From Acidimicrobiaceae bacterium (GTDB taxonomy: Bacteria > Actinomycetota > Acidimicrobiia > Acidimicrobiales > RAAP-2), in the NCBI GenBank assembly GCA_003164095.1, contig PLRX01000053.1:1-42163 (forward strand): a stretch of DNA of 42,163 nt, read 5' to 3'. A program made the translations under genes and the position numbers. How positions within the stretch are numbered: the stretch's first letter is position 1; each line of letters opens with the position of its first letter. Below the pieces are notes generated by a model. The model saw only the letters and a program-made list of their open reading frames with translations, ran no database searches and was not told where the DNA came from. Below, one piece after another: positions 10,567-19,686 of this stretch.

Positions 10567-10639
10567 AGCCGGCGGTGGGAATCGAACCCACGACCTGACG
10601 ATTACAAATCGTCTGCTCTGCCAACTGAGCTACACCGGC
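10567..10639 (-). tRNA. tRNA-Thr (anticodon UGU)
   Basis: 73-nt cloverleaf on the minus strand. Acceptor GCCGGTG pairs with CGCCGGC (one G-U), D-arm AGCTCAGTTGGCAGAGC, anticodon stem GACGA/TCGTC with loop TTTGTAA (anticodon TGT), T-arm GTGGGTTCGATTCCCAC. Discriminator U; no CCA is encoded. Reads threonine ACA and wobbling ACN codons. Confidence 0.96.
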
Positions 10640-16120: not shown

Positions 16121-16936
16121 CTACACGAGCGGCGACCGGGCCAGGGCGGCGGCCAGGATGTCGGTGGCCTGTGGTCGGAGCTCGGACAGCGGTCGGTTCC
16201 GGTGGACCCGGACACCGAGGTCGACCTGTGCGACGGTCTCCACCCCGAAATGGGAGGCGGCGTCGATCAGGAGTGCGAGCTCCACGGCATAGCCGTCGGC
16301 CGGGACGCACTTCTCGAAGACCCAGCGTGGTGCCGCCGTCTCGCCGGCCAGTGGCTGTCGGATGACGGCCAGCGCCGGATAGAGGAGATCGATCACAGGT
16401 CGGGCCATGAGCTCGGTCACCCGGCCACCACCGTCGGGTGCCCCGTTGAGGGGCCGCTGGTAGAAGCCCTTCACCACCGTGGTGGTGTCGTCCGTCAGCA
16501 GTGGTCCGAGGAGTCCGGTCACGAAGTGGGGACCGAAGTTGGTGACGTCGCCGTCGATGAAGGCGACGAGGTCACCCTGGGCCTCGCGCAGGGCGACCCG
16601 CATGGCTTGGCCCTTGCCCCCACTCGGGGTGTCGCCACCGATGACCCGGGCACCCGCCCGGGTGGCGATGGCGCCGGTGTCGTCGGTCGAGCCGTCGTCG
16701 ACGACGATGACCTCGTCGACCAGGGGGAGTCCTCCGCCGCCGGCGGTCAGGCCGGCGACGATGCTGTGGACGATGGGACCGATCGTTGCCGCCTCGTTGC
16801 GGGCCGGGATGCAGACCGACACGGTGCGACCGGCCTTGGCTGCGGCCAGTTCCGCCGCGTCGAAGTCGCCATGGGCGAACACCCGGGCCTGCTCGTCGTC
16901 CGGGACCCGTCCTGGCATCCCTCCATCTTCCCTCAC
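16121..16936 (-). CDS. gpgS: GpgS-like glucosyl-3-phosphoglycerate synthase (GT-A family)
   Basis: GT-A-fold glycosyltransferase predicted to transfer glucose from an NDP-sugar to 3-phosphoglycerate. 271 residues: VCIPARNEAATIGPIV, EVIVVDDGSTDDT, GGKGQAM, a metal-binding DGD in LVAFIDGDVTNFGPHFV (about 128-130), VKGFYQRP, the ELMARPVIDLLYP acceptor-site stretch, and RVHRN (H235). This matches the glucosyl-3-phosphoglycerate synthase family, though it is shorter than the mycobacterial enzyme. Start is GTG 16936 or ATG 16918. The glucosylglycerate phosphatase is not nearby, so the end product (glucosylglycerate or methylglucose polysaccharide primer) cannot be told. Confidence 0.85.
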   Translation of the reverse strand: MREDGGMPGRVPDDEQARVFAHGDFDAAELAAAKAGRTVSVCIPARNEAATIGPIVHSIVAGLTAGGGGLPLVDEVIVVDDGSTDDTGAIATRAGARVIGGDTPSGGKGQAMRVALREAQGDLVAFIDGDVTNFGPHFVTGLLGPLLTDDTTTVVKGFYQRPLNGAPDGGGRVTELMARPVIDLLYPALAVIRQPLAGETAAPRWVFEKCVPADGYAVELALLIDAASHFGVETVAQVDLGVRVHRNRPLSELRPQATDILAAALARSPLV

Positions 16937-16965
16937 CGGTCAGCCGGTCGTCGCGGGCACCGCAT
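16933..16965 (-). CDS. Candidate 10-codon leader ORF upstream of gpgS
   Basis: ATG 16965 opens MRCPRRPADR and stops at a TGA that overlaps the gpgS GTG (GTGA). A TACGCT -10 box (16978-16973, minus strand) lies 7 nt before this ATG, so it would be translated leaderless and could couple translation into gpgS. Short and possibly fortuitous. Confidence 0.35.
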   Translation of the reverse strand: MRCPRRPADR

Positions 16966-16972
16966 GCCTGGG

Positions 16973-16978
16973 AGCGTA
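16973..16978 (-). promoter_or_regulatory. -10 box upstream of gpgS
   Basis: TACGCT on the minus strand, 7 nt before the leader ATG 16965 and 36 nt before gpgS GTG 16936. Confidence 0.45.
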
Positions 16979-17012
16979 GGGGGAGCCGTCGACCGGGCGG
17001 GCTGAGACCACG

Positions 17013-17043
17013 TTGACGCGTCCCGGCGCAGTTGGCCTACAAT
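17013..17043 (+). promoter_or_regulatory. Promoter of the riboswitch-thrC transcript
   Basis: -35 TTGACG (17013-17018) and near-consensus -10 TACAAT (17038-17043), spacing 19 bp, which is long. Predicted start is at about 17050, just before the aptamer. Confidence 0.65.
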
Positions 17044-17050
17044 GGACCCC

Positions 17051-17160
17051 ATCATCCAGAGCAGCTGAGGGACCGGGCCCTGTGACGCTGCGGCAACCAG
17101 AGCACCGACGTCCACCCCAGCGGGGGACGTCGGTTCCAGGTGCCAATGCCCGAGCGATGA
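17051..17160 (+). ncRNA. SAM riboswitch (SAM-I/SAM-IV clan)
   Basis: The conserved core is readable: P1 strands TCATC (17052-17056) and GATGA (17156-17160), AGAGCAGCTGAGGGACCGGG with the kink-turn-like GAGGGA, P2 GCAGC/GCTGC (17061-17065, 17087-17091), the invariant CGGCAACC, and GGTGCCAAT before P4. P3 is a strong hairpin (ACCGACGTCC, 17104-17113, with 17125-17134). P1's 3' strand ends directly at the GGAG Shine-Dalgarno (17161-17164) of the GTG at 17171, so SAM binding probably blocks ribosome access. I cannot decide between SAM-I and SAM-IV by eye. Confidence 0.87.
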
Positions 17161-17170
17161 GGAGACTGCT

Positions 17171-18430
17171 GTGGACTTCGTTTCAGGCTTGCGCTGTCGT
17201 GAATGCGGCCGCACCTACCCTGCGGAGGCGCTCCATGTGTGCGACTTCTGCTTCGGACCCCTCGAGGTCACCTACGACTACGAGCGGGTGGCCGCCACCA
17301 TCTCGCGTGAGCGGATCGAGTCCGGGCCACGGTCGATCTGGCGCTACGCCGACCTCCTGCCGGTGCGTGACGCCGCCCCGGTGGACCTCGGTGCAGGGTT
17401 CACACCCCTGGTCCGCGCCGACCGCCTGGCCGCCGAACTGGGTCTCGGCGAGTTGTGGATCAAGGACGACACGGCCAACCCGACCGGCTCGTTCAAGGAC
17501 CGGGTGGTGTCCGTCGCTCTGACCAAGGCCCGCCAGCTCGGCTTCAAGGTCGCCGCCTGCGCCTCGACCGGGAACCTGGCCAACTCGGTGGCCGCACATG
17601 CCGCCCGGGCGGGCATGGACTCGGTCGTGCTGATCCCGCACGACCTCGAGAAGGCCAAGGTCACGATGACCTCCGTCTACGGCGGTCGCGTGTTCGCCGT
17701 CCAGGGCAGCTACGACGACGTCAACCGGCTGTGCGCCGAGCTCACGAGCGAGCAGCCCGAGTGGGCGTTCGTCAACGTGAACGTCCGCACCTACTACGCC
17801 GAGGGCTCGAAGACCCTGGCCTTCGAGGTCGCCGAACAGCTCGGCTGGCAGGCGCCCGACCACGTCGTGGTGCCGATCGGCTCGGGCAGTCAGCTCACCA
17901 AGGTGGCCAAGGGCTTCGCCGAGCTGTACACGGTCGGTCTGCTGGACGAGGAGCCGTCGGTGCGGGTGTCCGGCGCCCAGGCCGCGGGGTGCTCGCCGGT
18001 GGCGACCGCCTTTGCCGAGGGCACGGACGTCATCCGGCCGGTCAAGCCGGACACGATCGCCAAGTCGTTGGCCATCGGGAACCCGGCCGACGGCTGGTAT
18101 GCGCTGGACACGATCCGCCGTTCCGGTGGTGCCTGTGCAGCCGTGACCGACGCCGAGGTCCTCGACGGCATCCGCCTGCTGGCCCGCACGGAGGGGATCT
18201 TCGCCGAGACCGCCGGCGGGGTCACCATCGCCACCCTGGCCAAACTGGCCGCCGAGGGCGTCATCCGCTCCGACGAGCGGGTGGTGGCGATGATCACCGG
18301 CCACGGCCTGAAGACGGTGGAGGCGCTCGCCGACGTGGTCGGCCCGACCGCGACCATCGCACCCACACTCGACTCGTTCGCCGAGGCCATGGCGGCCGAC
18401 GCAGCATCCACCCTGAGGAGTTCCCTGTGA
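17171..18430 (+). CDS. thrC: Threonine synthase-like PLP enzyme under SAM riboswitch control
   Basis: 419-residue fold-type II PLP enzyme. N-terminal zinc-ribbon-like CRECG...CDFCFGPL (C9, C12, C24, C27), then the threonine-synthase core: FTPLVRADRLA, PLP lysine in NPTGSFKDR (K109), ACASTGNLANSVAA, PIGSGSQLTK and TAGGVTIATLAKL. Threonine synthase makes threonine from O-phosphohomoserine. A SAM riboswitch in front and an overlapping (GTGA) sulfur-carrier gene behind are unexpected for plain threonine synthesis. They suggest that it, or the pair, may instead place sulfur on an activated homoserine, by analogy with CysM-CysO. Family assignment is strong; substrate is inference. Confidence 0.9.
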   Translation: MDFVSGLRCRECGRTYPAEALHVCDFCFGPLEVTYDYERVAATISRERIESGPRSIWRYADLLPVRDAAPVDLGAGFTPLVRADRLAAELGLGELWIKDDTANPTGSFKDRVVSVALTKARQLGFKVAACASTGNLANSVAAHAARAGMDSVVLIPHDLEKAKVTMTSVYGGRVFAVQGSYDDVNRLCAELTSEQPEWAFVNVNVRTYYAEGSKTLAFEVAEQLGWQAPDHVVVPIGSGSQLTKVAKGFAELYTVGLLDEEPSVRVSGAQAAGCSPVATAFAEGTDVIRPVKPDTIAKSLAIGNPADGWYALDTIRRSGGACAAVTDAEVLDGIRLLARTEGIFAETAGGVTIATLAKLAAEGVIRSDERVVAMITGHGLKTVEALADVVGPTATIAPTLDSFAEAMAADAASTLRSSL

Positions 18431-18699
18431 TCAAGGTCCGTATCCCCGCGCAGCTGCGCACGCTCACCGGAGGGGTCGGTGAGGTCCCGATGGAGGGCGC
18501 CACAGTGGGCGAGGTGCTCAAGGGCCTCGACGCCGCACATGCCGGTTTTGCCGAGCGGATCTTCGACGCCGACGGCGGTCTCCGCCGCTTCGTCAACGTC
18601 TTCCTCGACGAGGAGGACGTGCGGTTCCTCGACGGGCTCGGCACACCGGTCACCGACGGCCAGACGCTGTCGATCGTGCCGGCCGTCGCCGGAGGCTGA
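18427..18699 (+). CDS. MoaD/ThiS-family sulfur carrier protein
   Basis: 90-residue ubiquitin-fold protein ending in Gly-Gly (VPAVAGG), the diagnostic terminus that is adenylated and converted to a thiocarboxylate. Sequence begins IKVRIPAQLRTLTGG and contains FVNVFLDEEDVRFLDGLGTPV and DGQTLSIVPAVAGG, close in style to CysO and MoaD2-type carriers. GTG start overlaps the thrC stop; GAGGAG lies 6 nt upstream. It shares the SAM-riboswitch transcript, which ties it to methionine/sulfur metabolism rather than molybdopterin or thiamine. No E1-like activating enzyme (MoeB/ThiF) or Mec-type protease is in the window. Confidence 0.9.
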   Translation: MIKVRIPAQLRTLTGGVGEVPMEGATVGEVLKGLDAAHAGFAERIFDADGGLRRFVNVFLDEEDVRFLDGLGTPVTDGQTLSIVPAVAGG

Positions 18700-18706
18700 C
18701 CCCGAC

Positions 18707-18724
18707 CGGCCGTCGGGACGGCCG
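18707..18724 (+). terminator. Hairpin after the thrC-moaD pair
   Basis: Stem CGGCCGT/ACGGCCG (7 bp) with a CGGG loop, 7 bp after the carrier-gene stop. No U-tract. Confidence 0.45.
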
Positions 18725-18749
18725 ACGAGGCCGCCGACGGGCTCACCGG

Positions 18750-18755
18750 TACACT
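18750..18755 (+). promoter_or_regulatory. -10 box upstream of the Bax inhibitor-1 gene
   Basis: TACACT 31 bp before the ATG, leaving a short leader with AGGAG (18777-18781) 5 nt from the start codon. No clear -35. Confidence 0.45.
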
Positions 18756-18786
18756 GGGGATCCACGCTGACCACCCAGGAGCGACC

Positions 18787-19686
18787 ATGACCTCGAACCA
18801 AGGATCCACCCCCGGCGCCCCCTCGGGGGGCAGGCCCACCGGTGGAACCGCCACGAGGACCCGGACCACGGGCGGGTCGTTCGGCACCATGTCCAACTTC
18901 AACCGGATGGCGACCACGTTCGTGGGGGACACGGGGACGACGCCCGCCCCCGCCAACTGGAAACAGCAGCCCGACGGCAACTGGTGGCTGTGGGACGGCT
19001 CCACCTGGCATCTCCAGCCGCAGGGCCCGCCACCCGCGCCCCCCGTGGCGGGCGGCACGTCACGGTTCACGGCCGACGGCGCACTGAACAAAGCGGGCCT
19101 GCTGGGCCTGATCGCCCTCGTGGTGGGTGCGGTCGCCTACATCGCCAACGCGCCGATCGGCCTCGCGTGGATCGGCATGTTCGTCGGGCTGGGCGTGGCG
19201 CTGTGGTGCTCGTTCTCGCCGCGCCGTGCACCGGTCCTCGCCCCGATCTTCGCCGTGGTGGAAGGCGGCGTCCTCGGAGTGATCTCCAGGTTCTACGCCG
19301 GGCAGAGCACACACGTGGTCACCCTGGCGATCGTCGGCACCGTGGCCGTCGTGGCGGCCGTGTGGGCGGTCTACCGCACCGGGCTCGTCCAGGTCGGCCC
19401 CCGGTTCTTCAAGATCACGCTCGTGGCCGGTGTCGGCATGATCGCCGTGATGCTGACCGCCATCCTGACGGGGTGGGGCCTCAGTGGCATCGGCGGCTTC
19501 CTGATCTTCGGCGTGCTCTACCTGGTCCTCGCGGTCATGAACCTGTTCGTCGACTTCAGCTTCGTCGACCGGGCGGAGGCGGCCGGGCTCGACGCCGACG
19601 CCGAGTGGTTCTCCGCGTTCATGCTCCTGCAGTCGTCGATGATGGTCTACCTCGCCCTCCTGCGGATCTTCGGCGGGCGCAGCTGA
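18787..19686 (+). CDS. Bax inhibitor-1/YccA family membrane protein with DUF2510-like N-terminus
   Basis: 299 residues. The cytoplasmic N-terminal region of about 95 residues is Gly/Thr/Pro-rich and contains a DUF2510-like WDG segment (QQPDGNWWLWDGSTWHL). Six to seven hydrophobic helices follow (for example LLGLIALVVGAVAYIANA, FAVVEGGVLGVISRFYAG, GGFLIFGVLYLVLAVMNLFVDFSFVD). The pattern matches the actinobacterial Bax inhibitor-1-like family (BaxI_1). Homologues are linked to calcium/proton leak and stress, but the bacterial role is unclear. Start supported by AGGAG. Confidence 0.85.
   Translation: MTSNQGSTPGAPSGGRPTGGTATRTRTTGGSFGTMSNFNRMATTFVGDTGTTPAPANWKQQPDGNWWLWDGSTWHLQPQGPPPAPPVAGGTSRFTADGALNKAGLLGLIALVVGAVAYIANAPIGLAWIGMFVGLGVALWCSFSPRRAPVLAPIFAVVEGGVLGVISRFYAGQSTHVVTLAIVGTVAVVAAVWAVYRTGLVQVGPRFFKITLVAGVGMIAVMLTAILTGWGLSGIGGFLIFGVLYLVLAVMNLFVDFSFVDRAEAAGLDADAEWFSAFMLLQSSMMVYLALLRIFGGRS

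Follow-up and report, generated by a model that had tools for sequence, protein, structure and literature searches.

A SAM-I riboswitch-preceded metM-metO operon in an Acidimicrobiaceae genome and its probable role in carrier-dependent homocysteine synthesis

Background

Which product, threonine or homocysteine, is made by an enzyme that resembles threonine synthase and whose gene follows a SAM riboswitch and is itself followed by the gene of a small sulfur-carrier-type protein? The question is raised by a locus in a stretch of 42,163 nucleotides from an Acidimicrobiaceae bacterium (hereafter, the window), for which a SAM-repressed formation of homocysteine with a protein thiocarboxylate as sulfur donor had been suggested from the sequence (the original prediction).

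Comparable pathways are known. In Mycobacterium tuberculosis, CysM, CysO, and Mec synthesize cysteine with a protein thiocarboxylate as sulfur donor, and in Wolinella the HcyS route yields homocysteine from a protein thiocarboxylate, the carrier being matured by a protease. The mycobacterial system has in common with the proposed MetM-MetO system a PLP enzyme of the same superfamily and a Gly-Gly protein thiocarboxylate as donor, but it differs in its product, cysteine, and the source genome of the window possesses a separate cysO-cysM-mec set of its own on contig C127. The Wolinella route differs in that its enzyme is of the MetY/MetZ type, not of the ThrC type.

The idea of a homocysteine-making route of the kind considered here is already in print for Streptomyces; a member from Acidimicrobiia is new. 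In Streptomyces, MetM has been described as a synthase of homocysteine, which it forms from O-phosphohomoserine, and cyanobacteria possess homologues (Hasebe 2024, cited in PMC12172450); the excerpted text of PMC12172450 places a SAM riboswitch upstream of metM in S. albulus and likens metO to a sulfur-carrier gene. The same excerpts describe a Microcystis ThrC that shares 51.6% identity with S. albulus MetM, with a metO-like neighbour and no riboswitch; in vitro, this homologue exhibited threonine synthase and threonine deaminase activity, with threonine formed from O-phosphohomoserine, and treated Microcystis cells showed no increase in methionine (PMC12172450). Going by these excerpts, S. 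albulus and the window share a ThrC-like enzyme, a neighbouring sulfur-carrier gene, and an upstream SAM riboswitch, whereas the window differs in that it comes from another class (Acidimicrobiia), in the GTGA overlap of the two genes, and in an additional metY-metX pair in its genome. Among the open papers listed by literature searches, no report on MetM appeared besides PMC12172450. Among the best 40 of 72 matches of the Nonomuraea enzyme in plasmid records there was no Streptomyces MetM, the next match after Nonomuraea reaching at most 37% identity.

Results

The enzyme and the carrier

The metM-like gene (17171..18430, + strand, GTG start) codes for 419 amino acids. Its product belongs to the PALP family (PF00291, 259.2 bits) and passes the NCBIfam cut-offs for threonine synthase, the name that these models give it (NF006050, 311.9 against 303 bits; TIGR00260, 304.7 against 167.1 bits); the five solved relatives that match it best likewise belong to the threonine synthases (2zsj, E 4e-64). 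With ThrC as represented by PDB 2zsj, 1uim, and 2d1f it shares the enzyme family and the PLP lysine motif, the lysine K109 being common to all 143 rows of an alignment whose rows are related and in a few cases come from one genome, and in which L125 and L152 had been cut at a motif beforehand. At the N-terminus (17195..17251, +) four zinc-ribbon-type cysteines (C9, C12, C24, and C27) are situated, as had been predicted for this ThrC-like PLP enzyme; all 130 MetM rows have cysteine at these four positions, and the stretch weakly matches the NinF model PF05810 (29.8 against 27.5 bits).

Nine further positions are invariant in all 130 MetM rows (L136, A137, R206, Y209, S213, K244, C274, G350, and T382), whereas the six ThrC rows uniformly carry T, S, N, R, Q, A, A, A, and D there. 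The first five of them correspond to T94, S95, N163, R166, and Q170 in the numbering of the genome's own ThrC, and we take the positions of this signature to be in contact with phosphate and cofactor in ThrC structures. Judged from the alignment, the change from NPxR to RxYY and the invariant Cys274 would be the first candidates in which we would look for a switch from water to sulfur.

Concerning the relationships of the enzyme, we obtained a tree of 81 of the 143 aligned rows, comprising the window, Nonomuraea, 18 of the 80 remaining rows of Acidimicrobiia type, 48 MetM rows from the wider sampling, and the 13 rows that are not MetM. In this tree, which carries a long-branch warning, the MetM rows are split from the ThrC of the source genome and from five further ThrC with a support of 100/100. 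The window MetM, 55.5% identical to its orthologue in Nonomuraea gerenzanensis, groups with the latter and with presumed Streptomyces orthologues, separately from ThrC (100/100). One row labelled as a paralogue (L161, G464:C125:1957-3072) falls on the MetM side on a branch of 2.22; it is a very divergent ThrC/MetM-like gene, which shares its contig with a MetM gene and has neither aptamer nor metO.

The metO-like gene (18427..18699, +) overlaps the metM stop codon with its start in the motif GTGA (18427-18430). Its product of 90 amino acids belongs to the ThiS family (PF02597, 57.2 bits; NF041918, 60.8 bits against a cut-off of 60) and ends in PAVAGG, in agreement with the GTGA-overlapping ThiS/MoaD-type protein of the original prediction. 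Its closest solved relative is CysO of M. tuberculosis (3dwg_C, E 1.6e-20).

Between 1 and 20 residues follow the Gly-Gly in 9 of 82 MetO carriers of the first locus set described below (L055, L060, L069, L071, L072, L076, L077, L079, and L086) and in 14 of 38 of the wider set (L115, L125-L128, L132, L133, L137, L139, L147, L148, L152, L170, and L173). Such tailed carriers would need trimming to Gly-Gly, for which a Mec-type protease would be the natural candidate.

The SAM-I aptamer and its closing helix

A SAM-I riboswitch aptamer (S box) is situated at 17049..17163 (+), where a scan of the whole window with RF00162 gave 57.4 bits (gathering threshold 44.4; E 7.8e-11). Our own model R1, built from 29 leaders with the window leader among its rows, gave 89.3 bits. 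Predicted as a member of the SAM-I/IV clan, the aptamer turns out to be of the SAM-I kind; SAM-IV was rejected, RF00634 having no match at E <= 0.001 anywhere in the genome.

The 3' strand of the closing helix P1 (GAUGA) passes directly into the Shine-Dalgarno sequence (17156..17164, +). The latter (AGGAG, 17160-17164) abuts the 3' end of the aptamer, as had been noticed before, and is separated by 6 nt from the GTG start at 17171. Since the aptamer ends 7 nt ahead of this start codon, no space is left for a separate expression platform, and we infer that at the window locus the closing helix exerts translational control. The P1 strand fused to the Shine-Dalgarno sequence (GATGAGGAG) is found ahead of the metM start in 64 of the 81 loci compared (the window and L011-L090), and the looser form GATGNGG in 70, the remaining 11 showing a few added bases or a different spacing. 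This layout is not general, since in some other families the aptamer is more distant from the gene (e.g., in L126, aptamer at 215-335, enzyme match from about 601).

A possible promoter (TTGACG and TACAAT, 19 nt apart; 17013..17043, +) was recognized by eye; this weak candidate would place the RNA start at about the first aptamer base. A consensus scan restricted to spacers of 16-18 nt yielded no promoter, and no terminator-like site was found by a scan within 16930-18800. Without ligand, the minimum-energy fold calculated for the leader differs from the aptamer, exhibits no clear switch, and is not unusual in its stability (z -1.53).

The pairing of the helices is well preserved among 47 leaders, including the genome's two other ones, in an alignment fitted to the model, with P1 and P4 outside of it. 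For P2, P2b, and P3, cells with both sides changed numbered 102 against a shuffled mean of 29.5, and 96.4% of pairs were standard against at most 44.1% when slid.

Altogether, the genome contains three SAM-I sites. The other two (C97:29942-30032, - strand, that is L007 9943-10033; C114:3073-3163, - strand, that is L008 3073-3163) have 84 bp in common at 96.4% identity, which is the sole blastn similarity between the two fetched stretches, and each precedes a different small ORF for which no Pfam match was found at E <= 0.1; one aptamer has been copied and placed before unrelated genes. The idea that these two leaders bind another ligand, raised by their CCGCAACC/GGUGCGAA core, was dropped: the core is a compensated basal P3 pair, which is C-G in 6 of the 47 leaders, and the variant is present ahead of other metM genes too. 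A search for leaders of this type in viral contigs gave no match.

Conservation of the gene order

How often the order of aptamer, enzyme gene, and carrier gene recurs was determined from 82 loci, i.e., those of the 80 best-matching relatives out of 214 (identity 74-94%; two of them, L019 and L046, on the same contig), the window, and Nonomuraea gerenzanensis (L091). One of these loci, L061, is the metM-metO locus of an isolate, Aciditerrimonas ferrireducens MV1. All 82 possess a metO-like ORF downstream of metM (one cut by a contig end) and a SAM-I aptamer directly upstream (each at E <= 1e-19 with R1, for which nine of these loci had been among the 29 building leaders), so that the arrangement proposed for comparison is constant in this set. 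The ten best enzyme relatives (88-94% identity) all belong to metagenome-assembled Acidimicrobiaceae or Acidimicrobiales, and N. gerenzanensis has the aptamer (68.7 bits), the enzyme, and the carrier.

Within the phylum, 197 of 396 genomes contain an enzyme match at E <= 1e-60, a count that includes paralogues of about 38-43% identity. Among the matches listed, 40 MetM loci (54-68% identity) were taken from families outside the class, and 31 of them have a SAM-I aptamer; none was found in the other nine (L128, L129, L130, L131, L141, L142, L148, L149, and L151), L149 having just about 70 bases upstream before the contig ends. A further 20 loci comprised eight MetM loci, all with SAM-I, and seven paralogues and five canonical ThrC, none with it. 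The carrier gene adjoins metM in 38 of the 48 wider MetM loci and the enzyme gene in none of the 12 paralogue and ThrC loci; hence the five canonical ThrC loci differ from MetM in having neither adjacent carrier gene nor aptamer. Of the ten MetM loci without adjacent metO (L123, L124, L141, L142, L144, L145, L146, L150, L153, and L162), eight still have the aptamer. In genus g104 of family f54, presumed to be Streptomyces (genomes of 6.1-9.9 Mb, 100% complete), aptamer and carrier occur in nine of nine loci fetched.

The remaining parts of the pathway in the source genome

The source genome is a draft of 3.72 Mb in 163 contigs, 95.5% complete. The second thrC sought according to the original prediction exists: on contig C89 a gene whose product is 39% identical to MetM lies in the order lysA-hom-thrC-rho-prfA (all but thrC named by eye from translations), so that the metM-like gene had to be rejected as the sole thrC of the genome. 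This ThrC reaches 323.1 bits with TIGR00260 and has no zinc ribbon. ThrB is encoded on C85 (187.6 bits against a cut-off of 168.25). The activating partner of the moeB/thiF kind that had been asked for is found as one strong E1, a rhodanese-ThiF protein (C55, L106 7611-6376, - strand), beside a second, weaker ThiF match on C109 (55.6 bits). In the strong E1 the rhodanese domain precedes ThiF, opposite to mycobacterial MoeZ, in which ThiF is ahead of rhodanese. A mec partner is likewise present, although not at the locus itself, since the Mec-type protease sits together with a CysO and a CysM-like ORF on C127 (the latter two named by eye), this CysO having ten residues after its Gly-Gly. A ThiS-like ORF occurs on a separate contig, C123. 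With the second thrC, thrB, the E1, and the Mec-type protease, the genome contains the parts needed for the proposed reaction. Elsewhere in the window, a tRNA gene is located at 10567-10639 (- strand; RF00005, 71.8 bits).

MetM is not the organism's only route to homocysteine, since metY and metX are adjacent on C56, a finding by which the notion of a sole route was refuted. MetY scores 776 against 703 bits (NF005872) and MetX 535.2 against 475 bits with NF047917, but only 429.6 against 500 bits with TIGR01392. The 13 kb around metY-metX gave no Rfam match at E <= 0.1.

Distribution against the classical homocysteine synthases

The canonical homocysteine route is commonly missing in Streptomyces, which is not strictly defining for MetM-MetO. 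In Acidimicrobiia we compared 120 genomes, each at least 85% complete, as drafts in which genes may be missing. MetM orthologues occur in 49 of them, namely in the source genome and in 48 others at 61-78% identity (G028 and G040 with fragments), other listed matches reaching at most 45%.

MetX is present in 22 of the 49 genomes with MetM versus 49 of the 71 without it (Fisher p 0.014). These counts rest on a threshold of our own choice (>= 250 bits), the weakest counted match having 274.6 bits and the next listed 93.3; the curated cut-off of 500 bits is reached by none of the 120. A strong match to PF01053, the Pfam family of MetB, MetC, MetY, and MetZ, is absent from 18 of 49 genomes with MetM versus 2 of 71 without (p 1e-6, kinship ignored), strong meaning a best E <= 5e-74 and weak E >= 1e-9. 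At the Pfam cut-off of 27 bits, 113 of the 120 genomes match, so that 13 of the 20 genomes without a strong match still have weak ones, which we take for distant relatives. Neither MetX nor a strong PF01053 match is found in 18 of the 49 MetM genomes versus one of the 71 others; a strong PF01053 enzyme is kept by 31 MetM genomes, the source genome among these. PF01837 was found in none of the 120 genomes, and homocysteine formation via this HcyBio family was rejected for them. MetM thus tends to occur in genomes that lack the classical synthases, which would suit a role as their substitute. The single other genome (G079), lacking MetM, MetX, strong PF01053, and PF01837 matches, may be an auxotroph, be incomplete, or use another route.

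Discussion

Three other explanations of the locus have to be weighed. The enzyme could be a second, true ThrC by which SAM tunes the branch point between threonine and methionine, as its passing of the NCBIfam threonine synthase models, its best five solved relatives, and the threonine synthase activity of the Microcystis homologue (in the excerpts of PMC12172450) might lead one to expect; however, another ThrC adjoins hom in the same genome, at least 43 of the 49 MetM genomes contain a second match of 37-45% identity without zinc ribbon, and a shut-off at high SAM would, by our reasoning, not spare homoserine for methionine. As the carrier gene and the nine substituted residues would moreover be left unexplained, we regard a true ThrC as improbable. 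Little likelihood is also given to a bifunctional enzyme that makes both threonine and homocysteine from O-phosphohomoserine in proportions that depend on how much MetO thiocarboxylate is available: the substrate would be the same, and the Microcystis homologue, in the excerpted text, combines threonine synthase with threonine deaminase (PMC12172450), but the separate ThrC and the invariant residue changes of the clade suggest specialisation.

The carrier, in turn, could serve another pathway (as CysO for CysM, or in molybdopterin or thiamin synthesis) and merely lie beside a threonine-synthase paralogue, a thought to which its closest solved relative, mycobacterial CysO, gives rise. This we consider highly improbable, given that mec-cysO-cysM and a ThiS are encoded elsewhere in the same genome, that enzyme and carrier genes are adjacent in 82 of 82 loci, and that the window carrier is nearer to Nonomuraea MetO (50 of 89 residues identical) than to the genome's own CysO (43 of 89).

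By analogy with Streptomyces, the window very probably contains a metM-metO operon for the SAM-gated, MetO-dependent synthesis of homocysteine from O-phosphohomoserine, and this main reading of the sequences is supported by homology, context, and distribution. Speaking against it are the metY-metX pair in the same genome, the strong PF01053 enzyme kept by 31 of 49 MetM genomes, the scores above the NCBIfam threonine synthase cut-offs, the in vitro behaviour of the Microcystis homologue, the wider MetM loci that lack an adjacent metO or the aptamer, the ligand-free fold of the leader, and the position of L161 in the tree. The rhodanese-ThiF E1 would activate the C-terminal Gly-Gly of MetO to the thiocarboxylate, in line with the Streptomyces MetO, which is reportedly thiocarboxylated and donates sulfur. 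ThrB would supply O-phosphohomoserine, from which MetM, as a PLP enzyme descended from threonine synthase, would eliminate phosphate, and at the gamma carbon it would take the sulfur of MetO rather than adding water, which would give threonine, such that homocysteine would result. Homocysteine may be released directly or via a MetO adduct cleaved by a Mec-type protease; both this mode of release and the assumption that the window protein performs the same reaction as its Streptomyces homologue are drawn from analogy. At high SAM the SAM-I aptamer would be bound, and because its closing helix ends in the Shine-Dalgarno sequence, we propose that MetM and the translationally coupled carrier would then not be made. 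Of the SAM-repressed, carrier-dependent route originally predicted, the version with O-phosphohomoserine is thus retained, by analogy with Streptomyces MetM-MetO as excerpted in PMC12172450, whereas O-acetylhomoserine, the other substrate considered, is not a reported one in that text.

A more extended picture is possible, and we put it forward tentatively and with some doubt as to whether all of it holds together. MetM-MetO would be the only de novo homocysteine route in 18 of the 120 sampled Acidimicrobiia and elsewhere a SAM-gated branch beside MetX-MetY; one E1 and Mec would be shared by MetO and CysO-CysM, Mec-type proteases would trim the tailed MetO, and P1 would cover the Shine-Dalgarno sequence with no separate expression platform.

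Conclusions

With the locus read as a metM-metO operon, the methionine route of Streptomyces would extend to Acidimicrobiia and to other families of the phylum. MetM can be told from a real threonine synthase by the nine residues, the riboswitch, and the neighbouring gene, but not by the NCBIfam models. The operon offers an explanation of how methionine may be synthesized in genomes without MetX and without an enzyme of the MetB/MetC/MetY/MetZ type, and the source genome would possess two sulfur-carrier pathways side by side, one for cysteine and, as we infer, one for homocysteine.
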